The notes under the pieces: generated by a model | The model's input: only the letters and a program-made list of their open reading frames with translations | The model's database searches: none | What the model was told of the DNA's origin: nothing | Translations under genes and position numbers: made by a program | Origin: Smaragdicoccus niigatensis DSM 44881 = NBRC 103563 | Lineage (GTDB): Bacteria; Actinomycetota; Actinomycetes; Mycobacteriales; Mycobacteriaceae | DNA: 64,000 nt | Assembly (NCBI RefSeq): GCF_000380645.1 | Contig: NZ_AQXZ01000015.1 | Span: 1 to 64,000 of the forward strand | Direction of reading: 5' to 3' | Part shown: positions 15,264 to 56,301 of the stretch, piece by piece | Layout of the letters: every line of letters begins with the position of its first letter | Numbering within the stretch: the stretch's first letter is position 1

Positions 15264-16297
15264 CCACCTCCGTCCTGCATTCGCCACGCTCAGCGACCGG
15301 TCTCGCAGTGATGGTCGACTGGGCATCTCAGTTCGGGGTCACGCCCGAACAGTGCCTGATCGGCACTCGGATCAACCCCCGAACACTTCGGATCCCCGAC
15401 GCCGAAGTCAGTGGCCAGCAAGAACTCCGCGCGATTGCTAACATCGTCGCCGCGGTCGGGGACCGGCCCGGGCTAGGGCTGGACATGGCGGCGAACTACC
15501 CGCTGACCGCCTACGGAGTCTGGGGTTTCGCCCTACTCACCAGTCAAACGCTGCGCGAGGCACTGGAGGTCGGCATCCGATTCATCCGCCTCACCTACGC
15601 GCTCTGCACATTCGAGGCACGTCAACACGATGGCTCGGTATCCATCGTCGCCGACGCACGGACGATCCCGGGCCCGCTACGACGCTTCATCCTCGAGCGC
15701 GACACCGCAGCCATCGCCGTCCTGCCGCGCGAGATATTCGGCACGAGCGTTCCGCCGGCTCGATTGTCGTTCGCCGTGCCGGACCCGGGCCCGGCTGTCG
15801 ACCGCTACACGGAAATGTTCGATGTGGTCCCGGAATTCGACGCGGCCGAGACCATCATCACCTTCGATCCCGAGCAGTTGGACGTCCCTCTCCCCCAAGC
15901 CAGCGCGCACAGCGCACGGTTTGCCGAGCAGCAATGCCGAGTACTGCTCGAACGGCGTGAGGCTCGCACGGGCCGCGCAGGTCAGGTCCGAGATCTGCTT
16001 CTGGCCAATCCGGCCGAGCCGCCGACACTCAACACCATCGCCGATCACCTGGCGATCAGCACCCGAACCCTGCGGCGCCAACTTGAGCAGGAGGGGACGT
16101 CACTGCGAAAGCTGCTCGATGAAGTGCGCAGGCACCTCGCGACGGAATTGCTGCACGGCGGCATGAGCGTTGAACAGGTCTCCAAGCGCTTGGGCTACGG
16201 CCATGTCAGCAATTTCTCCAACGCGTTCCGACGATGGAACGGTGAGGCGCCCCGCGCCCACCTGGCTCGACGGAACGCGACGAACAAGCTCGGATGA
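15260..16297 (+). CDS. AraC family regulator with VirS/OruR-type N-domain (2)
   Basis: This 345-aa paralogue of the preceding gene has the same architecture: sensory domain (GLAVMVDWASQFGVTPEQCL) and C-terminal AraC domain (LNTIADHLAISTRTLRRQLEQEG, VSKRLGYGHVSNFSNAFRRWNG). It starts at GTG inside the stop of the first regulator, so the two are translated as a coupled pair. They may have split signal recognition or may bind as a mixed dimer; neither is shown. The pair probably arose by tandem duplication. Confidence 0.93.
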   Translation: MTTSVLHSPRSATGLAVMVDWASQFGVTPEQCLIGTRINPRTLRIPDAEVSGQQELRAIANIVAAVGDRPGLGLDMAANYPLTAYGVWGFALLTSQTLREALEVGIRFIRLTYALCTFEARQHDGSVSIVADARTIPGPLRRFILERDTAAIAVLPREIFGTSVPPARLSFAVPDPGPAVDRYTEMFDVVPEFDAAETIITFDPEQLDVPLPQASAHSARFAEQQCRVLLERREARTGRAGQVRDLLLANPAEPPTLNTIADHLAISTRTLRRQLEQEGTSLRKLLDEVRRHLATELLHGGMSVEQVSKRLGYGHVSNFSNAFRRWNGEAPRAHLARRNATNKLG

Positions 16298-16313
16298 CGG
16301 TGGGGAATGTCCT

Positions 16314-17579
16314 ATGCGCAGATCACGTCTAGACCGTCTTGACGAGGGATGTCTGACGGTCGGCTCGGTCGATGAGCCCTGGACGATCCAACTCGAGGTC
16401 AGATTGCTGACGCGCCTCGATGAGCAACGTCTGACGGAAGCGATCCGGCGGGCGATGACGACTCACCCCATCGCTCGCGCGCGACTGCAGCCTCCCCGGC
16501 CCAACGACTTCCGGTTCTGGTGGCTTATCCCGGACGCACCGGGCAAGGTACCGCTGACGGTTGCCGATGGCGATGTGACCGAACTCCGCGATCAGCTGGT
16601 CAGCCGCGCGCCCGATCTGAAAGTCCGCACGTTCGATGCATTGCTCGTTCATGCTGATGACGGCGACCACTTGATCCTCAACATCCACCACGCCGCCGGC
16701 GACGGCATGGCCGCTTACCGGTTGATGACATCGATCCTTCGCAACTACTCCGGCACGCCCGACCCGGTCCCCGACTTCGATCCGGTTGACGCCCGCAATG
16801 TTCGCACGCTCATCGGCGCGCATGGGTGGAAGGACCGATGGGACCGGGGCCGACAGTTCGGCAAGCATCTGTTCTTCACGATGTGGCGGCCCGTTCGAAT
16901 CGCCCCGCAGAATGGTCATAATGCCGGCGGATACGGCTGTGAGCTGATCCGATTTACCGCCGCGGAGACCAAGCAGGTCGTGGCCCGTCGACCACCCGGC
17001 GTGACCGTCAACGATCTGCTGCTCGGCGGCCTGGCGCGCACTGTTCGACGCTGGAATGACGCTCGTGGCGTCCGGCCCAGGCGGGTCACCATCACGATGC
17101 CAATGAACGTTCGACCGGACGAGTGGCAGCACGAAGTGTTTGGAAACTTCGCTTCCTACGTGACGGTTCGAGTGATGAAGAAAGAGCAACGGGACCTGCA
17201 ATCCGCAACGCTCGGTGCGCAGGCCCGCACCAAGCTCATCAAACAGCGTCGGGCTCAGGGAATCCTCGTCGATATCTCCACGATGAGCAGCCTCGTTCCG
17301 GTGCGCTGGAAGCAGCTCATCGCGGACAAGCCGTTGGTTGGCGACCGCGCCGTCGACACCACCTGGCTCACCAATCTCGGCCGGCTGGGTGTACCCGACC
17401 TCGAGGTCGCGGACGTGTGGTTCTCACCGCCCGCGACGATGCCCATGGGGGCCAACATCGGCGTGGTGACGATTAATGGCGAAATGTTTGTCGCTTTGCG
17501 CTATCGGCACCCGCAGTTCGACCGCGAGGCCGCCAACCAGTTCTCACAGCTGTTCCGTGAGACGCTGCTTAACGGATAG
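16314..17579 (+). CDS. Condensation/acyltransferase-like protein (HHxxxDG family)
   Basis: The 421-aa protein belongs to the CoA-dependent acyltransferase superfamily. The catalytic HHAAGDG lies at about residues 126-132 and a DFGW-equivalent region near VADVWFSP. Relatives include Pap acyltransferases, WS/DGAT enzymes and free-standing condensation domains; it looks closer to Pap/condensation types. It follows the AraC pair by 16 bp and is likely co-transcribed from element B. ATG 16314 is chosen because the longer frame lies inside the AraC gene. It should esterify or transfer an acyl chain; donor and acceptor are unknown. Confidence 0.82.
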   Translation: MRRSRLDRLDEGCLTVGSVDEPWTIQLEVRLLTRLDEQRLTEAIRRAMTTHPIARARLQPPRPNDFRFWWLIPDAPGKVPLTVADGDVTELRDQLVSRAPDLKVRTFDALLVHADDGDHLILNIHHAAGDGMAAYRLMTSILRNYSGTPDPVPDFDPVDARNVRTLIGAHGWKDRWDRGRQFGKHLFFTMWRPVRIAPQNGHNAGGYGCELIRFTAAETKQVVARRPPGVTVNDLLLGGLARTVRRWNDARGVRPRRVTITMPMNVRPDEWQHEVFGNFASYVTVRVMKKEQRDLQSATLGAQARTKLIKQRRAQGILVDISTMSSLVPVRWKQLIADKPLVGDRAVDTTWLTNLGRLGVPDLEVADVWFSPPATMPMGANIGVVTINGEMFVALRYRHPQFDREAANQFSQLFRETLLNG

Positions 17580-18464: not shown

Positions 18465-19517
18465 TCAGTGGGCAGACGAAGCTAAGTGCTCGTCCAGATA
18501 ACGCCAGGTAGTGGCCGCGGCCTTGGGGCCGGTCAAAACGCCAAGGTGTCCGCCAGGTGCGGTTTCGAACCGAACTGAAGCCGCACGCGAGAGAACGTCG
18601 GTAATGGGCCGTGCAACAGGTACCGGAGCGATCGCATCCGCGAGCCCAGCCACTGCCAAGACAGGAACGGTGATCGCATCCAGTCGAACTGTGCGGTCAC
18701 GAAGGCCGAAACCACCAGACGCCAATTCGTTGCCGAGCATGAGGCGGTGCCACATCTGGTTGAACAGGCGACCCGGGTAAGCCGGCATTGCCGCGGTGAA
18801 GCCGTCGATCGACTTCATCTGGTCAAGCTTTTCGACGTCGTCGGTGTTCTGCAGGACGAACCAGGGCTTCTTCAGCTCACGCTCGATCGACGTCAGTCGG
18901 TAGCCGTTTCTCACCAACCACGGCGGGATGCCGCCGATCACTCGGTTCATCGTTCCGAGGACTTGACCGCCCGTGAGTGCGGAGGCCTGCCGCAGCGGAG
19001 CGATCGTCGCCAACTTGGAGTAGTCGATCGGCGTCGCGATCGCTGCGATCGAGCGGATCGGAAGGTCCGGGTGCGCCGCCGATGTCAGCAGCGAGAGGGT
19101 TCCGCCAAGGGACCAGCCAATGACTGCAACATTCTCGCCAGCATCGGCAGCAGCTGCCTTGGCCGCGTTGGGCACGATTCGGTCAATCCAGTCCTCGAAA
19201 CCCATCTTTCGGTCCGCGAAGGAGATGTCGCCATAGTCTGCGAGGTAAACGGTGTGTCCGTCGGTGATGAGCTGCTCGAGCAGGCTCTGGCCGCGACGGA
19301 GATCGAATGCCGCCGCGGGTGCCGCCGGAGGCGGGATCAGAAGGACAGCGCGATCGCCGTTCCCATATCGAGTCAGAGTCAGCTTGTGTTCGGACAAAAT
19401 GACCGAACCCAGCTGTGCGGTGCCGGGGCGAGGCGGTGTGGTGGCAAGGACCGACAGGGCCGTACGGATTCTCGACAGCTCGCGCGAGAGGCGAGCCGGT
19501 GAGCTGTTGCTGTTCAT
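18465..19517 (-). CDS. Alpha/beta hydrolase (PhaC-like fold)
   Basis: The 350-aa protein has the nucleophile motif GWSLGG (Ser136) preceded by VYLADYGDISFADRKMGFEDW, a pattern shared with PHA-synthase-like and long-chain lipase-like hydrolases. The acidic residue is probably in AVAGLADAIAP and the His in PGGHLGVLTG. The nucleophile is Ser, not the Cys of true PHA synthases, so a hydrolase is more likely. The start codon lies 7 nt after the TAGATT -10 of element C, so the mRNA is probably leaderless. Confidence 0.85.
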   Translation of the reverse strand: MNSNSSPARLSRELSRIRTALSVLATTPPRPGTAQLGSVILSEHKLTLTRYGNGDRAVLLIPPPAAPAAAFDLRRGQSLLEQLITDGHTVYLADYGDISFADRKMGFEDWIDRIVPNAAKAAAADAGENVAVIGWSLGGTLSLLTSAAHPDLPIRSIAAIATPIDYSKLATIAPLRQASALTGGQVLGTMNRVIGGIPPWLVRNGYRLTSIERELKKPWFVLQNTDDVEKLDQMKSIDGFTAAMPAYPGRLFNQMWHRLMLGNELASGGFGLRDRTVRLDAITVPVLAVAGLADAIAPVPVARPITDVLSRAASVRFETAPGGHLGVLTGPKAAATTWRYLDEHLASSAH

Positions 19518-19592: not shown

Positions 19593-20195
19593 CTATCCGA
19601 TGGCCCGAGTGATCAACGCCAACACATCCTCGGGGGGCAGTGTCGAGGGAAGGACTCGGCCTTCAACCCGCTCTAGTGTCGCCAACCCATGCGCACTCGA
19701 CCAACACGCGATAGCTAGAACCAGCGGCTCGGCGCCCGATCCCCATCCCCGATCGCATTCGGCAGATACCGCTGACAGAACCAACCGCCACAAGCGGCGC
19801 CGGGCATCGACAAGCGCGCGTGCGTTTGAATCAACCAGGCCGGAGCCATACATCAAGCTAAACCGCGCAGGCTCCGCCCTGGCGAATCGCACATACGCCT
19901 CACCTAACCGCGCGACGGATGTTCCCGCTGGCACGTCCGGACCTGCCGAATCGACGGCCGATTTCGACAGCTCGTGGAGCTTTTCCAGGCCGTCAACTGC
20001 TGACTGAGTGAACAGAGCCGTCCGATCGGGAAAGTAGTGCGCAATCCCCTGATGGGTGATGCCGACTCGACGGGCGATTGATCGCAAGCTCGCCCGCTCG
20101 GGTCCGACTTCTGTCAATTCATCGATTGCTGCTGCGAGCACCCGCTCGCGGACGGTGCCCTGGGCAGCGGCGACGTTCTCCACGGCGTCTGACAT
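19593..20195 (-). CDS. TetR family transcriptional regulator
   Basis: The 200-aa protein has a TetR helix-turn-helix (ASLRSIARRVGITHQGIAHYF) at about residues 33-53 and a helical ligand domain typical of ~200-aa TetR proteins (ARFSLMYGSGLV). ATG 20195 (MSDAVEN) is chosen over an ATG six codons upstream because it gives the usual short N-terminus. It follows the acyl-CoA dehydrogenase by 39 bp on the same strand, so it is probably expressed with it. The palindromic pair at 21.46-21.52 kb is the obvious candidate operator. Confidence 0.88.
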   Translation of the reverse strand: MSDAVENVAAAQGTVRERVLAAAIDELTEVGPERASLRSIARRVGITHQGIAHYFPDRTALFTQSAVDGLEKLHELSKSAVDSAGPDVPAGTSVARLGEAYVRFARAEPARFSLMYGSGLVDSNARALVDARRRLWRLVLSAVSAECDRGWGSGAEPLVLAIACWSSAHGLATLERVEGRVLPSTLPPEDVLALITRAIG

Positions 20196-20234
20196 ACAGG
20201 GAGTATGACCCACGCCGCCGAGATCACCCGAAGG

Positions 20235-21446
20235 TCAACGGATTGGCATTCCCGATATCGCGCGAGAGATGACCAGGCGCTGAATCTCGGAGGTGCCCTC
20301 AAAGATCGTGTAGATCTTGGCGTCGCGGAACATTCGTTCAACCGGGTGCTCGCGGCTATAGCCCGCCCCGCCCAGGATCTGGACCGCACGCTCGGTTACC
20401 CACACCGCGACTTCACTCGCCTTGAGCTTGGACATCGAGCCCTCGCCGGAGGTGAACGCCTTGCCGCTTCGGCCCATCCATGCGGCGCGCCACACGAGCA
20501 TGCGAGCTGCGTCGATTTCGGTGCACATGTCGGCAAGCGCGAACGCAATCGCCTGGTTCTCGATGATCGGCCGCCCAAACGCGACGCGCCCCTTCGCGTA
20601 GTCGAGGGCGTACTCATAGGCCGCACGGGCAATTCCCAAGGCTTGCGCACCGACGATCGGTCGGGTCAGTTCGAAAGTCTTCATCGCGGTCTGCGTGCTC
20701 GTGCGCGTACCTTCCCGAGCCCGCGCGAGACGCTCATCGAGCTTGTCCTTTCCACCGAGAAGGCACCGACCCGGGATACGGACGTCATCGAAGAACACGT
20801 CCGCGGTGTGCGATGCCTTCAGACCCAGCTTCTTGATCTTGCGAGTGCTCTCAACGCCGGGAGTGCCCTCCGGCACGATGAAGGACGCTTGGCCGCGGGC
20901 CTTCAGTTCGGGGTCAACGCTGGCGACGACGACATGCGTTGATGCGATTCCACCGTTGGTAATCCACGCCTTCTGCCCGTTGATTACCCACTCGTCGGTC
21001 GCTTCGTCATACCGCGCGCGGGTGCGCAGGTTCGACACGTCTGAGCCCGCGTCAGGTTCCGTGGCGCAGAAGGCAGCGAGGCGCGGTTCACTGACATCGC
21101 CGTAGAACTGCGGCGCCCACTCGCCGATCTGCTCCGGCGTCCCCGCGGCGAGAAGACCACCGACGGCAAGGTTGGTGCCGAACATGACCATCGCCGTACC
21201 CGCATCACCCCAGAACAGTTCTTCGGCCAGCAACGCCATGGAGAGACCTGCGGGGTCACCCCAGGTCGTCGCGGTCGCTTCCCAGCCGTAGAGCCCGATC
21301 TTGGCGGCCTCTTGGATGACGTGCCACGGCACCTGCTCGTTTTCGTCAGCCTCAATCGCCGCTGGTCGCATGACGTCGACAGCGAACCTGTGGGACCAGT
21401 CCACCAACTCCTGGTGGTCGCTCGACAGTTCCATAGAGAAAGTCAT
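20235..21446 (-). CDS. Acyl-CoA dehydrogenase
   Basis: The 403-aa protein is a full-length FAD-dependent acyl-CoA dehydrogenase. It has AFCATEPDAGSDVSN and EWVINGQKAWITNGG (flavin/substrate loops), AFGRPIIENQAIAFALADM, and the C-terminal YTIFEGTSEIQRLVISR with the catalytic Glu in the usual place. ATG 21446 has AAGGAG 8 nt upstream, so the 11 extra upstream codons are rejected. It is divergent from the flavoprotein-reductase fusion, and both promoters lie between paired palindromes, so the two products probably act on one pathway. The acyl group is unknown. Confidence 0.93.
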   Translation of the reverse strand: MTFSMELSSDHQELVDWSHRFAVDVMRPAAIEADENEQVPWHVIQEAAKIGLYGWEATATTWGDPAGLSMALLAEELFWGDAGTAMVMFGTNLAVGGLLAAGTPEQIGEWAPQFYGDVSEPRLAAFCATEPDAGSDVSNLRTRARYDEATDEWVINGQKAWITNGGIASTHVVVASVDPELKARGQASFIVPEGTPGVESTRKIKKLGLKASHTADVFFDDVRIPGRCLLGGKDKLDERLARAREGTRTSTQTAMKTFELTRPIVGAQALGIARAAYEYALDYAKGRVAFGRPIIENQAIAFALADMCTEIDAARMLVWRAAWMGRSGKAFTSGEGSMSKLKASEVAVWVTERAVQILGGAGYSREHPVERMFRDAKIYTIFEGTSEIQRLVISRAISGMPIR

Positions 21447-21458
21447 TACAAAGCTCCT

Positions 21459-21516
21459 TACCTGCCAGTGGCAGAACATGTCGCATGCAGCGTAAGCTCG
21501 CTACCTGCCAGTGGCA
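21459..21516. promoter_or_regulatory. Paired palindromic operators TACCTGCCAGTGGCA
   Basis: TACCTGCCAGTGGCA occurs at 21459-21473 and again at 21502-21516, same orientation, 43 bp apart (about four helical turns). Each contains the odd palindrome TGCCA-G-TGGCA. They fill the divergent promoter region between the dehydrogenase and the fusion gene. The TetR protein encoded behind the dehydrogenase is the likely ligand-responsive repressor. Confidence 0.75.
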
Positions 21517-21534
21517 AGCAGCGAGGAGACCGTG

Positions 21535-24222
21535 ATGATTGTTGGCACCAAGTACGTGTCGAGCGATGTGGACACCAACTACGACGCCATCGTGATCGGA
21601 TCGGGCCTCGGCGGCATGACGACCGCGGCACTGATGGCAAAAGCTGGACGCAAGGTCCTTGTACTCGAGCAGCACTACACCGCCGGAGGATTCAGCCATT
21701 CATGGGGCCGCCGCGGCTTCACCTGGGATGCCGGCGTCCACTACATCGGTCGCGTCCACAATCCTCGCTCCTTCGAGCGCCAACTCTTCGACCTGATCAC
21801 GGACGGTCAGCTGAAGTGGGCCAAGATGGACCCGGTCTACGACAGGATCGTCATCGGTGACCAGACCTACGACTATGTCGCGGGCGCGAAGAACTTCCGC
21901 GAAAAAATGCTGGAATACTTCCCAAACCGCCAGCGGGAAATCGATACCTACCTGCGCCTTGTCCGCGAATCAACGAGCGAGTTGATGAACCACTTCGGAC
22001 CGCGCCTGTTCCCCGGAATCATCCAGGCAGGACTCAAGGGTGTCACGCACCGCACCGGCTCAAAGTACTTCGAGCGAACCACGCAAGAGGTTCTCGAAAG
22101 CTTCATTGACGACCCCAAGCTCATCAGCGTTCTGTGTGGACAGTGGGGCGACTATGGGACGACGCCGCGGCGATCCGCCTTCGGTGCGCACGCCGCGACC
22201 GTGCAGCACTACCTCGACGGTGCCAGCTTTCCCATCGGCGGGGCGTCCGCGATCGCGGGGAACATCGTGCCCATCATCGAACGCGCCGGCGGAATGGTCT
22301 GTACCCAAGCCGAGGTCGACGAGATCCTGATCCGCAGGAACCGCGCGGTTGGCGTTCGCATGGCAAACGGCGATGAAATCCAGGCCGACCAGGTCATCAG
22401 CGCGACGGGACTGTTCAACACCTGGAACCGATTGCTCCCGCCACAGGTCCGTGAGCAGCACGGCATGGGTGACAAGCTCGCTCGTCTGAAGCCAGCGATT
22501 GCGCATGTCGGTCTGTACCTGGGGATCGACGGAACCACCGAGGAACTCGGGCTGGAGCAAGCCAACCTCTGGATCTACCGCGGCTACGACCACGACGCCG
22601 AGTTCAACCGATTCGCCCAGCAGCCGAACACCGACTTCTACGTCAACTACATAACCTTTCCGTCCACGAAGGACCCCGACTGGCCGCGCGAGCACCCCGG
22701 CAAGTCCGCCATCGACGCTATTGCCGCAGTCCCGTACGACTGGTTCAAGAAGTGGGAACGCAAGCCGTGGGGCGACCGCGGCGCGGACTACGAGGCCTTC
22801 AAGCAGCAGTTTGCCGACGCCATGCTCGCCGACGTGTACAAGTACGCGCCGGGCGTCCGCGGCAAGGTCGAGGTACAGGAAGTCTCTACACCGCTATCGA
22901 CCGCCCACTTCAGCAACTACGCGAACGGCCCGCTCTACGGCCTCGAGCACACTGTGGAGCGGTTCAGCCAGTCGTGGATCAAGCCGACCACCCCAATCAA
23001 GGGTCTGTATCTGACTGGTCAGGACACCCTCCTCGTCGGCATCGTCTCGGCGATGGCCTCAGGACTGCTGACCGCAACACAGACTCTCGGACCAGCCTTC
23101 GCACGGCTTCTGCCTGAACTCGGGCTCGTCCGAGGCCTCCCGGCTAGCGTGCTCGGCAAGGTTCCCGGCATTGCGGTGCCGGCACCAAAACCAGCCGTCA
23201 AGCTCACCGAACCGGACCCGCTGCCCCGCACATTCACTGCGCGCTGCGTGGAAGTCATCGACGTGACCGCCGATACCCGGGCGCTGAGGTTCATGGACGG
23301 GTCCGGCGCGGACCTCATCTACAAGCCGGGCCAATTCTTGACCTTTCACCTCGACATCGACGGCACGACGTGTCAGCGCTCGTATTCAATGTCGTCGGAC
23401 CCGACCAACCCGAAGATCTTTGAAGTCACCGTCAAGCGCATCGACGGCGGCCTTGTCTCCAACTGGCTCTGCGATTCAGTTCGAGTCGGCGACGAACTGA
23501 CTGTCAGCGGTGCCCACGGACACTTCACCTGCGCTCCGAATCCTCGACGCAAGCTGCTGATGCTGTCGGCGGGCAGCGGCATCACTCCCATGCTGTCGAT
23601 GAGTCGATGGATCGTGTCGCAGAAGCTCGACGTCGATGTCGTGTTCTTCCACAACGCACGCAGTCGCGACGATTTCATTTTCGGAGCAGAGCTCACCCAG
23701 CTCGCCCAGGACCATCCCAATTTCACGCTGCACTTGTCGCTCACCCGCGAGGGCCCCAAACAGGGTTGGGATGGGCCGACGGGATACCTCGATAGCGAGA
23801 CCTTGGAGCACATCGCCCCCGATCTTGCCGAGCGCCACGCCTACTCCTGTGGCCCAGAAGGCTTCATGGAAAGCGTTCGCGGCATCGTCGAGGACACCGG
23901 CTTCCGCATGAGCCGCTTCTTCGAGGAGAGCTACGCCAGCCCGGAGGCGATCGTCACGCCAGGAGGCAACCTCGTCTTCACTCGCTCGAACAAGACAGTT
24001 CCGTGTGCGAGCCTCCAAACAGTCTTGGAGGCGGCGGAAGCGGGCGGACTCAAGGTCGACAATGCCTGTCGCACCGGCGACTGCGGTGAATGCACGCTGA
24101 AGACTCTGTCCGGCACTGTCGAGATGAGCAGCACCGCCGGCCTCGACCCAGCAGACGCCGAAGAGGGCGCCATCTTGAGCTGCGTGGCCTACATCGACGG
24201 CGACGTATTGATTGACGCGTAG
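21535..24222 (+). CDS. Retinol-saturase/CrtI-like flavoprotein fused to ferredoxin reductase and [2Fe-2S] ferredoxin
   Basis: In this 895-aa protein, residues ~15-520 are a CrtI/CrtISO/RetSat-type flavoprotein: dinucleotide motif GSGLGG (22-27), EQHYTAGGFSHSWGRRGFTW, GVHYIG, and the C-terminal LYLTGQDTLLVGIVSAMASG. Residues ~563-800 are a ferredoxin-NADP reductase module (RSYSMSSDP for FAD, GSGITPML for the nucleotide, YSCGPEGFMESV). Residues ~810-895 are a plant-type ferredoxin with CRTGDCGEC (from ~845) and the last Cys in LSC (~883). Electrons could thus run NAD(P)H-FAD-[2Fe-2S]-FAD within one chain. ATG 21535 follows GAGGAG; earlier in-frame starts would place the operator inside the gene. 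A saturase or isomerase of a polyene or prenyl chain is family inference. Confidence 0.9.
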   Translation: MIVGTKYVSSDVDTNYDAIVIGSGLGGMTTAALMAKAGRKVLVLEQHYTAGGFSHSWGRRGFTWDAGVHYIGRVHNPRSFERQLFDLITDGQLKWAKMDPVYDRIVIGDQTYDYVAGAKNFREKMLEYFPNRQREIDTYLRLVRESTSELMNHFGPRLFPGIIQAGLKGVTHRTGSKYFERTTQEVLESFIDDPKLISVLCGQWGDYGTTPRRSAFGAHAATVQHYLDGASFPIGGASAIAGNIVPIIERAGGMVCTQAEVDEILIRRNRAVGVRMANGDEIQADQVISATGLFNTWNRLLPPQVREQHGMGDKLARLKPAIAHVGLYLGIDGTTEELGLEQANLWIYRGYDHDAEFNRFAQQPNTDFYVNYITFPSTKDPDWPREHPGKSAIDAIAAVPYDWFKKWERKPWGDRGADYEAFKQQFADAMLADVYKYAPGVRGKVEVQEVSTPLSTAHFSNYANGPLYGLEHTVERFSQSWIKPTTPIKGLYLTGQDTLLVGIVSAMASGLLTATQTLGPAFARLLPELGLVRGLPASVLGKVPGIAVPAPKPAVKLTEPDPLPRTFTARCVEVIDVTADTRALRFMDGSGADLIYKPGQFLTFHLDIDGTTCQRSYSMSSDPTNPKIFEVTVKRIDGGLVSNWLCDSVRVGDELTVSGAHGHFTCAPNPRRKLLMLSAGSGITPMLSMSRWIVSQKLDVDVVFFHNARSRDDFIFGAELTQLAQDHPNFTLHLSLTREGPKQGWDGPTGYLDSETLEHIAPDLAERHAYSCGPEGFMESVRGIVEDTGFRMSRFFEESYASPEAIVTPGGNLVFTRSNKTVPCASLQTVLEAAEAGGLKVDNACRTGDCGECTLKTLSGTVEMSSTAGLDPADAEEGAILSCVAYIDGDVLIDA

Positions 24223-24284: not shown

Positions 24285-24977
24285 TCAGCCTTCGAGAACC
24301 TTCACGACCTGCTTGGCCGTGACCTTTGCTGACGGCGGGTTCTGTCCGGTCACGAGACGACCATCGACGACAGCCTTGGGGACGAACGGAACGACCGGGA
24401 CCTTCTCGTAGAGCGCGCCCCGCTTCTTCATCTCTTCCTCGACGTTGTACGGAACGAGCTTGTCGACTCCGGCGGCCTTCTCTTCGGCCCACGCGAAGCC
24501 GGTGAGCTTACGCCCCTTGACCAGCAGAGAGCCGTCCGAAAGCGTCACGTTGAGCAGGCCGCAGTAGCCGTGACAGACCGACGAGACGACTCCGCCATTC
24601 TCGAAGATCTCACGGGTGATCTTCTGCAGACCCGGGCTGTCCGGGAAGTCGTACATGACGGCGTGACCACCGGTGTAGTAGATCGCGTCGTAGTCCGACG
24701 AGTTGATGTCGTCCGGCGAAGCCGTGTTCGCCAGCAGTGCCATCTTGGCTTCGTCGGCGTGCCACGCCTTCGCGGTCTTGTCGTAGTTCGGGAACTTCAG
24801 CGAGCGCGGCTCCAGCGGGGACAGGCCGCCCTTGGGGCTGACGAGGTGCTGTTCGTATCCGTGCTTCTCGAACACGTGCCACGCGTGGGTGAGTTCGGAC
24901 AGCCACAGGCCCGTCGGGTGGGAGGGGTCGTCGTAGTGTGCAACGTTGGAGACGACGTGGAGAATGCGTTTTGTCAT
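24285..24977 (-). CDS. DJ-1/PfpI family protein (Hsp31-like)
   Basis: The 230-aa protein has the type 1 glutamine-amidotransferase-like fold. It starts RILHVVSNVAHYDDPSHPTGLWLSE, then IYYTGGHAVMYDFPD, and the nucleophile elbow VSSVCHGYCGLLN with the reactive Cys near residue 117. Family members act as glyoxalase III, deglycase-like or isonitrile/small-carbonyl hydratases, so aldehyde detoxification fits the redox cargo. An AraC-like element (D) lies about 40 bp upstream but its match is weak. It is the last leftward gene before the terminator. Confidence 0.88.
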   Translation of the reverse strand: MTKRILHVVSNVAHYDDPSHPTGLWLSELTHAWHVFEKHGYEQHLVSPKGGLSPLEPRSLKFPNYDKTAKAWHADEAKMALLANTASPDDINSSDYDAIYYTGGHAVMYDFPDSPGLQKITREIFENGGVVSSVCHGYCGLLNVTLSDGSLLVKGRKLTGFAWAEEKAAGVDKLVPYNVEEEMKKRGALYEKVPVVPFVPKAVVDGRLVTGQNPPSAKVTAKQVVKVLEG

Positions 24978-26260: not shown

Positions 26261-27042
26261 TATCGACCTCGGCTCGCGCCGTGAATGATCACGGAACTGA
26301 CGGCTTGTGGATCGTCATACATGGGCACGTGGCCGCATCCCTTGAGGTTGTGCCATTCGGTGTCCAGAGGAAGCTGGTCCGTCTCGCGGCAACCGCGGTT
26401 GAGAAGCACGTCGCGGCTCCCGATCGCGATTGTCACCGGAACGTCCAGGTGTTGGCCTCCGTGGAATCGTGCGTGCGGAAAGGCAGCGAGAGTTCGGTCG
26501 AAGCCCGACGACCGGCCAAGCGCGCGGCTTTCGGCGATGAGTGCGGATTTCGGCAGTTTCCACGGCTTTCCGTACACTCCCGCGGCCGCGATGGAGCTGC
26601 CCGGAAGGCGGCTCAGTTGTTCGATCCTGCTGTCGAGACGCCGATTGACCCTGCGGTTGAACCGCAGCTCGCGCATGGTGTACTTCGGGACCTGCTTCCA
26701 GAGGCCCGCAGGACAAATACCCGTCGCGGAGCGTACTACGCCCATACGCGCGAGTTCGAGCGTGATCCATCCACCCAGGGAGTTGCCGGCGGCGTGCGGG
26801 CGGACCACACCTAACGTCGTAACGAAGTCGTGGACCGCATGCGCCAGGCCCGCCGGGCTGACGTCGGCCGCGTCGTCCATCAGTGGCGATTCACCGAAGC
26901 CGGGAAGGTCGAGGGTGATCACGTCGAACCGGTCGACGAGGAACGGCAGGACCGGAGCCCACGACTGTCGGCGCCCGCCAATGCCATGGATGAGCACCAG
27001 CGGCTCCCCAGTTCCGGCACGCTCGTAAGCGAGTTCGGTCAT
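26260..27042 (-). CDS. Alpha/beta hydrolase
   Basis: The 260-aa protein has the oxyanion HGIGGRRQSW near residue 20, GFGES, the nucleophile in AGNSLGGWITLELA (Ser ~105), Asp in AIGSRDVLLN and His near GCGHVPM. ATG 27042 overlaps the GMC oxidoreductase stop (ATGA), and its own stop overlaps the MFS start, so the three are translationally coupled. It might open a lactone or ester produced by the flanking oxidoreductases; this is inferred from context. Confidence 0.9.
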   Translation of the reverse strand: MTELAYERAGTGEPLVLIHGIGGRRQSWAPVLPFLVDRFDVITLDLPGFGESPLMDDAADVSPAGLAHAVHDFVTTLGVVRPHAAGNSLGGWITLELARMGVVRSATGICPAGLWKQVPKYTMRELRFNRRVNRRLDSRIEQLSRLPGSSIAAAGVYGKPWKLPKSALIAESRALGRSSGFDRTLAAFPHARFHGGQHLDVPVTIAIGSRDVLLNRGCRETDQLPLDTEWHNLKGCGHVPMYDDPQAVSSVIIHGASRGR

Positions 27043-28760
27043 CGATCGTCCCACTCACGTTCGGGATCGAATCCCGGCAGACCCAGGTCTGCCCGCAGGA
27101 TGTCCGCGGCCCGTTCGGCGAACATCGAGATGGTGAGAAACGGGTTCACCCCGAGCGCGCGTGGGATGACGGACCCGTCGATAACCAGAAGTCCCTCATG
27201 CAGATCTCCGTCAGCACGGAAGACGCGTCCGGCATCGTCGACCACGCCGCCTTCCACGTTGTCCGCGGTCGCGCACCCGCCGATCGGGTGGCCGGTCATT
27301 CGGTGCTTGCCCATGAGTACGTTCTTGGAGACGTACGTGCCGCCGACGGACTCCACGACACGCTCGAGCGTGTCGTCGATGTCGCGCAGCATCCGTTCCT
27401 CGGGAGCACCTGGCCAGTCGATGGCGACCGAACCGTTCTTCTTGAGGACGAACTCCCCGTCGGAGTTGTCGTGCGCCATGATGAGGAAGCCCAGTGAGTG
27501 GTTCATCGCGCCGTCGGTGTTCCAGCGCACGTCTTTGCGGATTCGTTTGCGTTTGATGCGATCCTTGGGCCGCTTTCGAACGGTTCCGAGCGTCATGAGG
27601 GCGACCCGGAGGACGTCCACGACCGCCCGCGGAACCGACATGTCTTCGACAGTGAAGCGTTTGCGGAGGTCAGACTGGTTGGCGCCGAACCGCATTGCGG
27701 AGTTGATGCTCGGGCCGCACTGGACGTCGGAACGTGGCGAACCGTCGGTTGTCGCCCATGGCAACGTGTCGGTGCGGAAGTCAGTGTTGTAGGCGAAGGC
27801 GTAGTTGTCGCCGTTACCACTGAAGTTCTTGCCGAGCCACTCCGAGGTGCTGAGGCCGCTGGCTCTGGATCGCAGCAGAATCCCGTTCGTCCCGAGGGTT
27901 CCCGCGCTGAGGATGACCCGTTTGGCGGTGATTTCCACCGGCGTCGTATCCCGGCCTCGTGAGCCGTCCCGTCGCACTCCGACGACCTGCCAGCTGTCGT
28001 CCGCGGACTTGGTCACCCGATCGACCTCGATGCAGGTGTGTAGTTCGACGCCGTAGTGGTGGGCCATCGGCAGGTAGTTCGTCATCAGCGTGTTCTTGGA
28101 GAACGAGTTGTCGCCGGTTCCGTCCCCACCATGCAGGGGGCATTTCTTGCGCTGCACGCCATACTTGGTGACGCGATCTTCGGTGCTGACGGTGATCTCG
28201 AGGTTCGTTGCCGGTACTCCCGCTTGATCTGCAATCTTGTTGAATGCGTCCACCCGTGCCAACGGCTGGTCGTCGGCGAACCGAACGGCACCGAGCATGG
28301 CTTCGGCGCGGCCGAAGTACTTGGCGAGGTGTCCGATCCCGTCGGAGTCCTCCTCGACCGCATCGCGGAACGCACGTGGCCACGACTGCAGAAAGACCTC
28401 GCGGTCGGGTCGCATGGCGACGTTGAAGTTGACCAGCGAGGTACCGCCAAGTCCGACCGCCTGGAGGACGTCGATGTCGTCGTTGCGGTTGATCTCGATG
28501 AGGCCGAGCGGGTTCCGCGTCGAGTACATCTGCTTCATCGCCGATCGACTCGTTTCCGGGAACGTGCCGGTCGGATGTTCTTTACCTCGCTCGAGCACAG
28601 CGATGCGGAGTTTGCCGCCGGAGGCCGCATTGGCGACCCCCAGTCGCGCCGCCATGATGGACCCGCCGTAGCCCGAGCCGACGATGACGATGTCGTACTC
28701 GCCGGCCAGCGCCTCGGGTGCGCTGGCCAGCGACTGTGCGATCTCAGACACCGGTCGCAT
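27039..28760 (-). CDS. GMC-family (cholesterol-oxidase-like) oxidoreductase
   Basis: The 573-aa protein has FAD motif GSGYGG (~28-33), VLERGKEHPTG, the GMC signature VGLGGTSLVNFNV and the C-terminal active-site region HPIGGCATADN, followed by GVNPFLTISMFAERAA. It most resembles mycobacterial ChoD-type GMC proteins rather than choline dehydrogenases. It should oxidise an alcohol of a lipid, sterol or terpenoid with O2 or another acceptor. ATG 28760 overlaps the end of the upstream gene; GTG 28751 is an alternative. It lies in the operon 30278-25049 headed by the acetoacetate-decarboxylase-like gene. Confidence 0.92.
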   Translation of the reverse strand: MRPVSEIAQSLASAPEALAGEYDIVIVGSGYGGSIMAARLGVANAASGGKLRIAVLERGKEHPTGTFPETSRSAMKQMYSTRNPLGLIEINRNDDIDVLQAVGLGGTSLVNFNVAMRPDREVFLQSWPRAFRDAVEEDSDGIGHLAKYFGRAEAMLGAVRFADDQPLARVDAFNKIADQAGVPATNLEITVSTEDRVTKYGVQRKKCPLHGGDGTGDNSFSKNTLMTNYLPMAHHYGVELHTCIEVDRVTKSADDSWQVVGVRRDGSRGRDTTPVEITAKRVILSAGTLGTNGILLRSRASGLSTSEWLGKNFSGNGDNYAFAYNTDFRTDTLPWATTDGSPRSDVQCGPSINSAMRFGANQSDLRKRFTVEDMSVPRAVVDVLRVALMTLGTVRKRPKDRIKRKRIRKDVRWNTDGAMNHSLGFLIMAHDNSDGEFVLKKNGSVAIDWPGAPEERMLRDIDDTLERVVESVGGTYVSKNVLMGKHRMTGHPIGGCATADNVEGGVVDDAGRVFRADGDLHEGLLVIDGSVIPRALGVNPFLTISMFAERAADILRADLGLPGFDPEREWDDR

Positions 28761-29247
28761 CCAGCGCGAACCACAAGACATTCGCCGCGTCGTTCTCGCC
28801 CTGCTTCCACATCGCCGGGCCGAGGAACATTCCGGGCGAGACCTCGCGCAATTCGTCGTGGATCTTTCGAATGAACCACGGGTTGCCCGGCTGCTCGTAG
28901 TCGAGCACGATGCAGTCGTTGCCGTCGATGAGCGACTTCTGGATTCGGGTCTTGAACTCGAACCAGTCCATCGAGACGCCGAGCTGGATACGGTTGATGC
29001 CCTTGCCGCTGGTCGCGTCCTCGGACGTCAGCGTCTTGCCGTCCCAGGGAAAGACCGGCAGCTTCGACCACAGCCGCAGGAGTCCCGCGACAGGCGTGAT
29101 GCGATGCGTGCCGCGCACCGCGAGCATGCGCCCCTTGGGCTTGTTGTCGAGAACTTCCAGGTGGTCCGGAACCGAACCCGACTTATAGAGCGCTTCGAGA
29201 TCGTCGAAGCTCATCGATGACAGATCGTCCAGGGTGTAGGTGGTCAT
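28744..29247 (-). CDS. Conserved hypothetical protein next to GMC oxidoreductase
   Basis: The 167-aa soluble protein begins MTTYTLDDLSSMSFDDLEAL. The middle and C-terminal parts look like a beta-barrel of lipocalin or DUF4334 type (GRMLAVRGTHRITPVAG, WDGKTLTSED, IVLDYEQPGNPWFIRKIHDEL, GPAMWK). No catalytic motif is visible. Its stop overlaps the GMC gene start by 17 nt, so a role tied to that enzyme, such as ligand carriage, is inferred. The family is not securely recognised. Confidence 0.7.
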   Translation of the reverse strand: MTTYTLDDLSSMSFDDLEALYKSGSVPDHLEVLDNKPKGRMLAVRGTHRITPVAGLLRLWSKLPVFPWDGKTLTSEDATSGKGINRIQLGVSMDWFEFKTRIQKSLIDGNDCIVLDYEQPGNPWFIRKIHDELREVSPGMFLGPAMWKQGENDAANVLWFALDATGV

Positions 29248-30965: not shown

Positions 30966-32318
30966 TCACTCCAACTCAGCAAGACTCCACTCGAGGTGCT
31001 CGAGCATGCGCTGAAGTCCGGGAACCGCGGTCCGGCAGCCGACGATTCCGATGTCCAGGTTGCCTGCGTAACTTACAGCGGTGATGTTCAAGGCGTTGTG
31101 GTCTGCGGGTATGGACACCGGATAATTTGCCGCCATCCGCGCACCGTTCAAATACAGCGGCTCCTTCGGGCCCGGAACATTGGAGATGACCAGATTCGCG
31201 ACCGGAGGCGCGATCGATCCGATGCCCGGCAACGCTCCGGTCAGCAACTGCGCGGCCTGCATCGTCGCACCCATAAGCTGGATTTGGGACTTGGACTGCC
31301 TGGCCATCGTTGCTTTGGCGCTGTTCATGGAGCCGACGATCGTCGCGAGCCGATCCTCCGGATTCGGCAGATGTGTGCCGAGATTACAGAGCGCAAATCC
31401 AATCGCGTTGCCCCCGTCGGAATCTTCGGATCTCACCGATACCGGAACGGCGGCGACCAATGGCCGCGCCGGCAAGGCATCATGAGAGAGAAGATACCGA
31501 CGTAGGGCACCCGAACACATTGCGAGGAATACGTCATTGAGCGTCGCCCCCGCACCGGCTTTGCGCCCGGCTTCGCGGATACGCTCAATCGGCCACGACT
31601 GGGCGGCGAACCTACGGCTGCCCGTGATGGGAACGTTGAACATCGTGCGCGGGGCAGGCAACGGAAGAGCCGAGTTATTTCTACCCACGCTCCCGGCTGC
31701 GATCTTGCCGAAACTCAGCGCCGCGGGCCCCGCCGCGCGGACATAGTTCGCTAAAGCACTTGCCGTTGCCGGTGACGCTGTTTTCGGTTGACGAACCGGG
31801 ACCGACGGAGGCTTAGCCCACAGCGGCGCGGACGTACCGTCGACCGTGTCCGAAAGAGACGACGCCACGAGGCGCATGGCGGCCACACCATCGGCGAGCG
31901 AGTGGTGCAGCTTCGCGTAGACGGCGAATCGATTGTGGTCGACACCCTCGATGAGGTGGTACTCCCAGAGCGGTCGATGCCGATCCAACAGAGCGCTGTG
32001 CGCACGCGAGACGTACTCGAGCAGCTCGCGAACCCGGCCCGGTTGAGGCAGGCCCGACAGCGTCACGTGATGCGAAAGATCGACGTCGTCGTCTTCGGTC
32101 CACCAGATCTGGCCGAGCGAATCGACCGGATCTGCAGGCCGTTTCCGGAAGGTCGACTTGAGATCCGTGTACGTCGTCACGTCGTTGTAAAGGTTGCGCA
32201 CAAACTGTTGGTCCGCGTGCGGCGGGAGCTCGAAGAGTTGCATAGCCCCCACATGCGTCGGATGTTCGCGTGATTCGGCCAGCAGGAAAATTGAGTCTGT
32301 TGGTGAAATGAGCCCCAT
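30966..32318 (-). CDS. WS/DGAT-family acyltransferase (wax ester/triacylglycerol synthase-like)
   Basis: The 450-aa protein begins MGLISPTDSIFLLAESREHP and has the catalytic HHSLADG at about 137-143. The C-terminal family motif NLVISNVPGPKEPLYLNGA and IPADHNALNITAVSYAG are present. It should acylate an alcohol or diacylglycerol with acyl-CoA. ATG 32318 lies just after the stop of the DJ-1/SRPBCC gene and gives the canonical family N-terminus. It is third in the leftward operon under element F. A WS/DGAT member (Tgs4) also belongs to the mymA operon. Confidence 0.92.
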   Translation of the reverse strand: MGLISPTDSIFLLAESREHPTHVGAMQLFELPPHADQQFVRNLYNDVTTYTDLKSTFRKRPADPVDSLGQIWWTEDDDVDLSHHVTLSGLPQPGRVRELLEYVSRAHSALLDRHRPLWEYHLIEGVDHNRFAVYAKLHHSLADGVAAMRLVASSLSDTVDGTSAPLWAKPPSVPVRQPKTASPATASALANYVRAAGPAALSFGKIAAGSVGRNNSALPLPAPRTMFNVPITGSRRFAAQSWPIERIREAGRKAGAGATLNDVFLAMCSGALRRYLLSHDALPARPLVAAVPVSVRSEDSDGGNAIGFALCNLGTHLPNPEDRLATIVGSMNSAKATMARQSKSQIQLMGATMQAAQLLTGALPGIGSIAPPVANLVISNVPGPKEPLYLNGARMAANYPVSIPADHNALNITAVSYAGNLDIGIVGCRTAVPGLQRMLEHLEWSLAELE

Positions 32319-32325
32319 GTCCGTG

Positions 32326-33495
32326 TCAGGCCTTCTGGTCCGCGAGGCGTGTCGATGGTTCGAATTTCGCCGCAAGCCGTTCCAGCGTCGTCCGCATTCC
32401 GTCCCGGAGATGATCACTTCGGTCGGTTGCCCCGGCCATGTCCTGCAGGAGCACCACTGGACGAATCTGCTTGGTGTGCTTGCGGATCGACTCGGTCACC
32501 CGGGTTCCTCCGCCCTCGGCGTCGGCAAAGGTATACCGCCAGTGCGACTCTGAGGGCGAGTCGGTAAGGAATGCGAATACCTTCCCCGGGACGTTCTCAG
32601 TGACGGTGCCGGTCATCGACCAGCGGTAGAGGGGTCCGATGTGATTACGGCCGACGAATCTTCTCCCCGGTTCTATCCACGCCGTTTTCCTGTTTTCCGG
32701 ACTGATTTCGCCCATGTGCGTCATGTCGCTGATGAACGCCCACAGTTGCTCGCGGGGCGCATCGATGACTCGCGACACGACCACCTCGAGCACCGGTCCA
32801 CTCAGTTCGGCGACCAAACGTTTGGCCAACTTTTCTGAAGAAGCCGGATTCTGGCCCGTGTAGAGGTTCCGGTCGATGACCACGTAAGGGCGCAACGGAA
32901 TCTTTCGCTTCGAATAGTCGACGCCCGCTTGTTTGAGTCGATCCTCCAGCAGCCAGGGCGCCTTCTTGGCGAACCGGTTGAGAAGTTCTTCTCGGTTGGA
33001 TAGTCCGGTCATCCGATAGCCCGCGAAGGGCGATGTCCCGTCCGGGTTTCTCGCGGCCAGGATTGCCGCCGGTGCATGGCACAACAACGCCAGGGGCTTA
33101 CCTGATTGCAGCCGCTTGGTCAGCAATTGCCCTGAGGTCTCGTTGTAGGCGAGGTCCTCCATCGGTCCGTGCCCACCCGGATAGAAGACGAGGTCGAACT
33201 CGTCCGCGTCGATCTCGTCGAGCGGCACAGTATTTTCGAGTTCGGCGGCGATGCTGTGCAGGTAGTCCCTGACGTGCGCGGTCTTGCGCGGCAGGCCGCC
33301 GGCGAGCCCCACACTGAGCTGGTCGAGCGTGGGTGGTTTCCCGCCGGGGGTCGCGATCGCCACCCGCCATCCGGCTTCGGTGAAGATGCGGTGCGGGACC
33401 GCAACCTCTTCACCCCAGTACCCCGACGGGTGCACCGTCCCATCGTTGAGGGTCCAGCGATCAGCCGCTGAGACCACAAACAAAACGGTCTTCAT
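32326..33495 (-). CDS. DJ-1/PfpI domain fused to an SRPBCC (polyketide cyclase-like) domain
   Basis: In this 389-aa protein, residues 1-~232 are a DJ-1/PfpI domain (TVLFVVSAADRWTLNDG, LVFYPGGHGPMEDL, nucleophile in LALLCHAPAAIL, Cys ~138). Residues ~235-380 are a START/SRPBCC domain (VVVSRVIDAPREQLWAFISDM through LERLAAKF). SRPBCC domains bind hydrophobic ligands, so the fusion may present a lipophilic carbonyl to the DJ-1 site. The fusion is continuous with no frameshift. It lies between the aldehyde dehydrogenase (6-bp gap) and the WS/DGAT gene (7-bp gap). Confidence 0.88.
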   Translation of the reverse strand: MKTVLFVVSAADRWTLNDGTVHPSGYWGEEVAVPHRIFTEAGWRVAIATPGGKPPTLDQLSVGLAGGLPRKTAHVRDYLHSIAAELENTVPLDEIDADEFDLVFYPGGHGPMEDLAYNETSGQLLTKRLQSGKPLALLCHAPAAILAARNPDGTSPFAGYRMTGLSNREELLNRFAKKAPWLLEDRLKQAGVDYSKRKIPLRPYVVIDRNLYTGQNPASSEKLAKRLVAELSGPVLEVVVSRVIDAPREQLWAFISDMTHMGEISPENRKTAWIEPGRRFVGRNHIGPLYRWSMTGTVTENVPGKVFAFLTDSPSESHWRYTFADAEGGGTRVTESIRKHTKQIRPVVLLQDMAGATDRSDHLRDGMRTTLERLAAKFEPSTRLADQKA

Positions 33496-38004: not shown

Positions 38005-39483
38005 ATGACAAACACCAACGCGCAGACACCGCGAATCGCCATCGTCGGGTCCGGCTTCGCCGGACTCGGCGCAGCGGTCTCACTCAAGCGTCAAGGGTTC
38101 GACAACATCGTCATTTTCGAGAAGGCGTCAGATGTCGGCGGCGTATGGCGAGACAATGACTACCCCGGCGCGGCCTGCGACGTGCAGAGCTACCTGTACT
38201 CGTTCTCGTTTGCACCAAACAGTCAGTGGGGCAACACGTTCGCCCGACAGAGTGAGATCTATGCCTACCTCCGCAAGGTCGCCGTAGATTTCGACCTGCT
38301 CCCCCACATTCGGTTCAACACCTCGGTCGATGCGGCGCGCTGGGACGCTGGCCGATCCATCTGGCGACTCGACACCGCGGGCGGCGTCACTGAAGTCGAG
38401 CACCTCATCGTCGCGACAGGTGCGCTGTCCGAGCCTGCGATTCCGAACCTCAAGGGCATTGAGCAGTTCAATGGAGAGGTATTCCATTCGGCCCGATGGA
38501 ATCATTCGTTCGACCTCGAGGGCAAGCGCGTCGTTGTCGTCGGAACCGGCGCATCAGCAATCCAGTTCGTCCCGGCCATCCAGCCCAAGGTCGACCACCT
38601 GACCCTGTTCCAGCGCACCGCGCCATGGGTTCTCCCGCGCCACGACCGCCCGATCGGAAGCGTCGAGCGCACCCTCATGGGTACGGTCCCACTCCTTCAA
38701 CAAGCCGAGCGTGCGCGCATTTATGTCCAGCGGGAAATGGCGGTTCTCGGCTTCCGCAATCCACTCCTGATGCGAATCGGCGAATTCCAAGCCAAGCGGC
38801 ACCTGCGCGACCAGGTCGCCGACCCTGAGTTGCGCGCCAAGCTCACGCCCGACTACCGACTCGGCTGCAAACGGATCCTCATCTCCAACGAGTACCTCCG
38901 GTCGCTCGATCGGCCGAACGCCGACGTCGTCACCAGTGGAATCCGTGAAGTGACTGCTGACGGTGTCATCGACAACGACGGCGTTCTGCATCCAGCAGAC
39001 GCCATCATCCTCGGAACGGGCTTCAAGACTGCTCGACTGCCGCTGACGGACGCGATCGAGGTTGATGGCAGGACAATGGGCGAGACCTTCGGGAAGAGCC
39101 CGCGGGCCTACCTTGGGACATCGGTGGCCGGTTATCCGAACGTCTACCTCATGCACGGCCCGAATATCGGACTGGGCCACACGTCGGTGATCCAGATGTT
39201 CGAATCGCAGGTCAACTACATCGTCGACGCGATTTCGCACGCGGCCAGCCAGAACGCCGGCGCGATCGAACCGACTGCCGAAGCGCAGGAACAGTTCGGC
39301 CAGCTTGTCGACCGCCTCACCGAAGGATCGGTCTGGACGTCGGGTGGATGCGACAGTTGGTACCTCGATCAGACGGGGCGCAACAGCAACCTCTGGCCGG
39401 GAACGACATTCGACTTCAGCGCCAGATCGAAACGCTTCCGAGCCGACGATCACGTCCTGACTCCCGCGAAGGTTGCGTCATGA
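38005..39483 (+). CDS. Flavin-containing (Baeyer-Villiger-type) monooxygenase
   Basis: The 492-aa protein has two Rossmann motifs, GSGFAG (15-20) for FAD and VVVVGTGASAIQ (~180) for NADPH. Between them is FNGEVFHSARW, which matches the BVMO fingerprint FxGxxxHxxxW. VGGVWRDNDYPGAACDVQSYLY is the usual FAD loop. MymA of M. tuberculosis is a related FMO. It should insert oxygen next to a ketone or oxygenate a soft nucleophile. Its stop overlaps the hydrolase start (ATGA), which suggests lactone or ester formation followed by hydrolysis. GGGAGG lies upstream of the ATG. Confidence 0.93.
   Translation: MTNTNAQTPRIAIVGSGFAGLGAAVSLKRQGFDNIVIFEKASDVGGVWRDNDYPGAACDVQSYLYSFSFAPNSQWGNTFARQSEIYAYLRKVAVDFDLLPHIRFNTSVDAARWDAGRSIWRLDTAGGVTEVEHLIVATGALSEPAIPNLKGIEQFNGEVFHSARWNHSFDLEGKRVVVVGTGASAIQFVPAIQPKVDHLTLFQRTAPWVLPRHDRPIGSVERTLMGTVPLLQQAERARIYVQREMAVLGFRNPLLMRIGEFQAKRHLRDQVADPELRAKLTPDYRLGCKRILISNEYLRSLDRPNADVVTSGIREVTADGVIDNDGVLHPADAIILGTGFKTARLPLTDAIEVDGRTMGETFGKSPRAYLGTSVAGYPNVYLMHGPNIGLGHTSVIQMFESQVNYIVDAISHAASQNAGAIEPTAEAQEQFGQLVDRLTEGSVWTSGGCDSWYLDQTGRNSNLWPGTTFDFSARSKRFRADDHVLTPAKVAS

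Positions 39484-50790: not shown

Positions 50791-56301
<5,511 letters not shown>

Follow-up and report, generated by a model that had tools for sequence, protein, structure and literature searches.

A CrtI-like flavoprotein fused to a ferredoxin reductase and a ferredoxin in Smaragdicoccus niigatensis: a candidate self-sufficient enzyme for unsaturated lipids

Why would a flavoprotein of the carotenoid desaturase type carry its own ferredoxin reductase and its own ferredoxin in the same polypeptide? The question is raised by a gene of Smaragdicoccus niigatensis DSM 44881, located at positions 21535..24222 of the forward strand in the 64,000-nucleotide stretch analysed here (the window; contig NZ_AQXZ01000015.1, positions 1 to 64,000) and encoding a fusion protein of 895 amino acids (aa). 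We propose that it is a self-sufficient flavoenzyme which is inducible and uses NAD(P)H to reduce an unsaturated, hydrophobic lipid or isoprenoid, a reading to which we assign a probability of about 0.45. A preliminary description made from the letters alone had placed a CrtI-type flavoprotein, a ferredoxin reductase (FNR) module and a plant-type [2Fe-2S] domain one after the other in this chain, and the Pfam matches, all above their gathering scores, agree with that order: NAD_binding_8 (residues 20-78) with Amino_oxidase (25-293), FAD_binding_6 (572-664), NAD_binding_1 (676-782) and Fer2 (817-887). The CrtI/CRTISO-superfamily FAD domain thus covers approximately residues 15-523 (21577..23103, +), a linker residues 524-561 (23104..23217, +), the FNR-type module for FAD and NAD(P)H residues 562-800 (23218..23934, +) and the [2Fe-2S] domain residues 810-895 (23962..24219, +). 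The ATG at 21535 is favoured as the start, since Met, Gly-4 and Tyr-7 are common to all seven aligned fusions (this one and six homologues); a GTG upstream at 21511 would give 903 aa.

The motifs that bind flavin, NAD(P) and the cluster are invariant in all seven fusions, as the description had anticipated when it called them intact. They comprise GSGLGG (22-27) in the N-terminal domain, RSYxxSS (615-621), K634, R635, G639, S642, W644, GSGxTPM (680-686) and CGPxGFM (772-778) in the FNR module, and the Fe-S cysteines 845, 850, 853 and 883; the inactivated FNR or Fe-S homologues which it had considered did not turn up among the seven. An AlphaFold2 model built from a 46-sequence alignment has a mean predicted local distance difference test score (pLDDT) of 85.3, with values below 50 at residues 532-560, a low-confidence linker. 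Compared by VIA-align, model residues 15-523 resemble the gamma-carotenoid desaturase 4rep (Z 34.6, 3.2 Å, 470 aligned), and both the fold and the N-terminal dinucleotide-binding motif of the CrtI/CRTISO superfamily are present. The FNR module aligns with 4eh1 (Z 27.5, 2.1 Å, 226 aligned), this middle part resembling flavohaemoglobin-type and cytochrome b5 reductases with Z of about 25 to 27.5. Residues beyond 800 were scarcely covered by the VIA comparison.

What the reductase half may be made for is suggested by its relatives. With FAD_binding_6, NAD_binding_1 and a C-terminal Fer2 holding four cysteines it has the make-up of the FNR/[2Fe-2S] reductase class, and its best NCBIfam models are GbcB (295.4, cut-off 500) and then HCR (213.2, cut-off 383), both scored below cut-off. 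Reductases of the GbcB/HCR type, which are separate proteins similar to the C-terminal half of the fusion, take electrons from NAD(P)H and pass them on to an oxygenase. Out of three plasmid homologues of the module that were opened, two adjoin a gene for the alpha subunit of an aromatic ring-hydroxylating dioxygenase, and the third is found near genes for a Rieske protein and a glycine betaine transporter. By its sequence the module belongs with the reductases that supply Rieske oxygenases. Another parallel is CYP116B, the self-sufficient P450 with an FMN-type reductase, whose catalytic domain is unrelated to the flavoprotein studied here. There, too, catalytic domain, FNR and Fer2 follow in this order in one chain (PMC7260179), and since the tail of the fusion matches in sequence and in fold, we count the likeness in favour of a self-sufficient enzyme; Foldseek also ranks 6kbh and 6laa, full-length structures of self-sufficient P450s sharing the reductase-ferredoxin tail. 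An electron path from NAD(P)H over the Fe-S cluster to the catalytic flavin is strongly implied. In this path NAD(P)H would donate a hydride to the FNR-bound FAD, and the [2Fe-2S] domain would relay electrons one at a time to the FAD bound in the CrtI/CRTISO-like domain. Once reduced, this catalytic FAD would saturate a C=C bond in a polyunsaturated, hydrophobic lipid or isoprenoid; we infer the direction from the reductase class and from redox logic.

The preliminary description had left open whether other proteins share this exact order. At least six other genomes encode the same three-domain chain at full length, with 47-56% identity: Burkholderiales PBB3, Rhodoferax, Arenimonas, a Lysobacterales and a Burkholderiaceae metagenome-assembled genome (MAG), and the strain Pseudomarimonas arenosa, that is five MAGs and one strain from the orders Burkholderiales and Lysobacterales. 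The host of the window is very probably an actinobacterium, as its genome has six WhiB genes over cut-off, a family matched in just one of 14 control genomes, that of Corynebacterium glutamicum; the fusion would then be present in two phyla. All six were recovered again in their own genomes, the Pseudomarimonas copy as two pieces of one open frame, and these full-length homologues rule out an assembly or annotation artefact. They stem from a scan of genome contigs with one peptide pattern, which gave at least 584 relatives among at least 591 candidate stretches; 80 were kept (6 fused, 74 lone), the list of fusions being a lower bound. The 74 lone relatives match the catalytic domain only, with 43-50% identity.

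The arrangement, described beforehand as unusual, is rare. Among 251 genomes sampled from the family, the organism's own was the only one to match at 1e-100, and five of 396 from the phylum matched at 1e-90, its own with the fusion and four with the catalytic domain alone. The sole other genome of the genus examined (G001) is without it, and of two matches at 1e-120 in 349 genomes of the Rhodoferax order, only that of Rhodoferax itself is a fusion (the best two or three candidates per genome were scored in these large searches). None of 72,556 plasmid records holds at least 80% of the query, while 424 hold parts. When 89 catalytic domains were placed in a quick maximum-likelihood tree, those of the seven fusions grouped in a single clade (SH-aLRT 100), with four lone domains of Spirochaetota as its sister (support of the joint set, 97); within the clade the window copy sits on a long branch (0.62) and has no firm position. 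The simplest interpretation is that the fusion arose once and spread later. Because the distribution is patchy, with a congener lacking the fusion and a single family genome holding it, an old horizontal gain is suggested. Recent foreign DNA is unsupported by composition, the guanine-plus-cytosine (GC) content of the gene being 0.622 against 0.633 for the window; its GC at third codon positions is 0.797, and 11 other genes of the window range from 0.65 to 0.84. In L017/L018, the closest pair, ratios of nonsynonymous to synonymous substitution rates (dN/dS) of 0.048 (catalytic part), 0.112 (FNR) and 0.078 (Fer2) show purifying selection on each of the three parts. The corresponding values are 0.042, 0.068 and 0.036 for L017/L019 (dS 1.4-2.4), and 0.221, 0.200 and 0.374 for L020/L022, a weaker constraint.

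Self-sufficient redox enzymes and CrtI-type enzymes with ferredoxin partners are both already known, and it is their combination in one chain that appears to be new. No open-access paper on such a chain was found in a search that left subscription journals largely uncovered, so that the preliminary description's reservation that it might be a characterised class gained no ground. The description had further taken a ferredoxin and ferredoxin reductase path to be alien to CrtI-like enzymes, and here it has to be corrected: the CrtI-type flavoproteins CtmA and CtmB (COG1233-like), which make up the limonene dehydrogenase of Castellaniella, are reported to be encoded with the [2Fe-2S] ferredoxin CtmE and the NADH:ferredoxin oxidoreductase CtmF (PMC4109377). 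CtmAB differs from the fusion in having separate genes, two catalytic subunits and an oxidative reaction. The likeness to the CRTISO/CrtI/retinol saturase superfamily (COG1233-like) as a whole lies in the fold, the FAD motif and similarity over the full N-terminal domain, although CrtI is described as an FAD protein that stands alone and relies on O2 or quinones (PMC3382138). The sterol delta-24 desaturase of Sterolibacterium, related to CtmAB, is likewise a flavin desaturase acting next to the double bond of an isoprenoid chain, but it is heteromeric, with covalent FMN and a proposed radical mechanism, and the available part of the report describes no fused reductase (PMC11061730). For C=C reduction, the geranylgeranyl reductase of Methanosarcina is a comparable system. 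This flavin enzyme needs a ferredoxin, a separate protein whose gene lies at the same locus (PMC10821996). Its flavoprotein family is not that of the fusion.

The regulatory setting bears on the inducible part of our proposal. Divergent from the fusion lies an acyl-CoA dehydrogenase gene (20235..21446, -), for which a start at 21446 (MTFSMEL) is preferred over that of the open reading frame (ORF) at 21479, a relative in L130 beginning MTFSLEL; it is followed by the gene of a TetR_C_33 family regulator (19593..20213, -), our candidate local repressor. Upstream neighbours of the catalytic-domain genes were picked mechanically as ORFs at 78 loci (72 lone, 6 fusion genes; L029 and L036 had none and were left out). 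TetR_C_33 regulators occur in 19 of these (16 lone, 3 fusion), PadR in 13, all beside lone genes, and MarR in three, namely the fusions L017, L018 and L019, each confirmed; the MarR count refers to PF01047 only, since MarR_2 matches six but may also be matched by PadR proteins. A regulator of one of the three families stands next door to 29 of 72 lone genes and to all six fusions. A DUF6231 gene is the upstream neighbour in 13 more of the 78, mostly a synteny effect within Marinobacter. Because the enzyme gene is repeatedly paired with three unrelated regulator families, induction of the family's genes by a small, probably hydrophobic compound is suggested. Searched by blastp against the ORFs of the 80 loci, the window TetR gave 18 matches, all of them TetR upstream neighbours of lone or fused genes. 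It has no match at 1e-25 in any of the 60 other genomes among 61.

Two near-identical operator-like palindromes, CTGCCAGTGGCAG (21462..21474) and CTGCCAGTGGCAA (21505..21517), neither assigned to a strand, sit between the fusion and the acyl-CoA dehydrogenase gene in one divergent promoter. On the strength of this pair, a putative operator common to both genes is plausible. An extended 16-mer allowing up to two mismatches matched five times in the whole genome, three times at the two promoter sites and twice elsewhere with two mismatches each, compared with 30 matches for the reversed pattern; no further convincing site was found in the genome beyond the promoter pair. Against a shared operator, the core 11-mer with one mismatch allowed occurs in the window no less often than expected by chance (2 matches; the shuffles average 1.45, and 42 of 100 reach 2). 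Upstream of L017-L019 the palindromes are of the type GTTCAAxxTTGAAC, unlike those of the window, and no clear palindrome was seen upstream of L020-L022. In the proposed scheme the TetR_C_33 repressor would act at the palindromes and, released by the substrate or a relative of it, would allow the fusion and the acyl-CoA dehydrogenase to be switched on together; the product might then be fed into acyl-CoA catabolism by that dehydrogenase.

Reduction is one of several reactions that the domain order would permit. An unlikely alternative is a reduced-FAD-dependent non-redox enzyme, a CRTISO-like cis-trans isomerase or a hydratase, in which the module would serve only to hold the flavin in its reduced state in an aerobic cell. 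CRTISO is assayed with reduced FAD, which its non-redox reaction requires (PMC3382138); that reduced FAD is the active form of this relative we also count for a reductive enzyme. A hydratase finds its precedent in a Methanosarcina CrtI homologue responsible for hydroxyarchaeol biosynthesis (PMC10821996). The affinity to the CRTISO side claimed by the preliminary description holds in part: carot_isom (TIGR02730) is the top catalytic-domain model for the lone relatives L024, L041 and L033 and for the fusion L017, whereas crtI_fam (TIGR02734) scores higher for the window copy (146.8 against 104), for the fusion L020 and for the more distant L012. The window copy and all six of these relatives lie below the cut-offs of 238.1 for crtI_fam and 586.9 for carot_isom (far below in the latter case, where the maximum was 151.1), as does the paralogue L002. 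Moreover, a dedicated NAD(P)H chain would be costly for mere priming.

Somewhat less probable is a self-sufficient flavin mono-oxygenase, a CrtO- or CrtP-like ketolase or oxidase whose O2-activating flavin would be reduced by the module, by analogy with CYP116B. The shared domain order and the probably aerobic life of the hosts would fit, and the window protein does match the CrtO model; its 81.5 bits are far below the cut-off of 1000 and weaker than its scores with crtI_fam and carot_isom.

The best published precedent, CtmAB with CtmE and CtmF, belongs to an oxidative alternative that we consider rather improbable, namely that the substrate is desaturated or hydroxylated from water and the electrons exit through the fused Fe-S and FNR domains to NAD(P)+. 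Mutants in ctmA, ctmB and ctmE are reported to no longer grow on limonene, and genes for an acyl-CoA dehydrogenase, an acetyl-CoA acetyltransferase and a MarR regulator lie near the ctm genes (PMC4109377); similarly, the fusion L017 has a MarR gene upstream and thiolase and acyl-CoA dehydrogenase genes downstream. CtmAB and the delta-24 desaturase carry, however, a covalent-flavin histidine motif, and its consensus G-F-[LR]-x-[NS]-[TL]-H-A (PMC11061730) is absent from all 89 family members, as is a looser form searched in the first 150 residues. In addition, electron transfer from an allylic C-H donor to NAD(P)+ would be uphill. A second CrtI-type gene, which the two catalytic subunits of CtmAB would call for, was not seen next to the fusion among the window genes scanned, but paralogues lie on other contigs. 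One such contig encodes a CrtI above cut-off (417.9 bits, one TAA being counted within the matched stretch), and since the genome thus has a separate enzyme, the fusion is probably not the organism's biosynthetic phytoene or pigment desaturase.

That the module serves another partner and is joined to the CrtI-like domain incidentally is very improbable, for although FNR-Fer2 proteins of the same type are found beside oxygenase genes and an FMO-like flavin-binding mono-oxygenase is encoded 14 kb from the fusion (38005-39483, +), such mono-oxygenases normally need no ferredoxin, no P450 or Rieske oxygenase was present among 20 window neighbours scanned, and the chain is kept in seven genomes with intact motifs and, in the closest pair, selection on all its parts.

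The reductive, inducible flavoenzyme that we prefer has several observations weighing against it. The characterised members of the superfamily (CrtI, CtmAB, the delta-24 desaturase) mostly oxidise, so far as the cited reports extend. In the AlphaFold2 model a predicted template modelling score of 0.64 leaves the docking of the domains undefined. A neighbouring reductase is no rule of the family: a lone catalytic gene near an FNR-Fer2 gene was found at none of the 74 lone loci, whether by blastp on ORFs or by tblastn on whole loci, with flanks of up to 7 kb (49 of the 74 loci measure at least 15 kb, 12 less than 10 kb). The window TetR is only 25-33% identical to the 18 TetRs it matched, and 43 of 72 lone loci have neither a TetR_C_33 nor a PadR upstream neighbour. 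Finally, the acyl-CoA dehydrogenase subfamily occurs in other genomes of the family or order without a fusion nearby, and the gene may belong to a unit of its own. Relatives with 64-67% identity are present in 4 of 20 other genomes, and the four regions hold no match to the fusion or to the window TetR, tblastn included; in L129 the dehydrogenase gene was located by tblastn. In two of these loci the dehydrogenase gene is followed by one for an alpha/beta hydrolase, and in a third by a TetR gene with a different C-terminal family. Because of these relatives without fusion or TetR, the link between the dehydrogenase and the substrate is weakened, the shared promoter region being what supports it.

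To our knowledge, the physiological electron donor of retinol saturase is poorly known. The same applies to the reduced-flavin members of the superfamily, among them CRTISO, which needs reduced FAD (PMC3382138), and the fusion points to a possible electron supply route for this poorly understood family of lipid enzymes. With its own NAD(P)H-to-ferredoxin path in a single chain, electron route and reaction would become testable on one purified protein, and this protein could find use as a biocatalyst where C=C bonds of lipids or terpenes are to be reduced. Attention is also directed to the lone relatives, an apparently uncharacterised, large family, many of whose genes adjoin that of a regulator. 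As a tentative extension, possible rather than probable, at least part of the CRTISO/RetSat branch might draw on NAD(P)H by way of a [2Fe-2S] ferredoxin, and the lone relatives, widespread and flanked by regulators, might be ferredoxin-fed reductases of environmental polyenes or isoprenoids, an undescribed class of C=C saturases.

The lone CRTISO-like relatives (L023-L096, 74 loci) are spread over Pseudomonadota, Spirochaetota, Myxococcota, Acidobacteriota and others. Many have a TetR or PadR gene next to them, and one locus (L028, 7001-10080) has a tandem pair of them adjoining a TetR gene, the second copy running to the locus end. Downstream of the fusion, the next ORF is an AbiEii-type toxin gene in the Arenimonas MAG (L019, 6072-6941, -) and a Hen1-type RNA-repair gene in Pseudomarimonas (L022, 10126-11556, +). 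The neighbourhood in the window is rich in putative lipid-metabolism genes: wax ester synthase/DGAT-like genes lie on either side, at 16170-17579 (+; a weak match) and 30966-32417 (-), and there are also genes for a PhaC-like hydrolase (18465-19517) and for a cholesterol-oxidase-like GMC enzyme (27039-28781). A frame of 1836 codons at 50791-56301 (-) runs antisense to plus-strand ORFs of 583 and 1050 codons and is possibly a high-GC shadow frame. Lastly, a lone DJ-1 protein is encoded at 24285-24977, and a DJ-1/PfpI domain (30-229) is joined to a polyketide-cyclase/START-like domain (237-379) in one protein at 32326-33495 (-).

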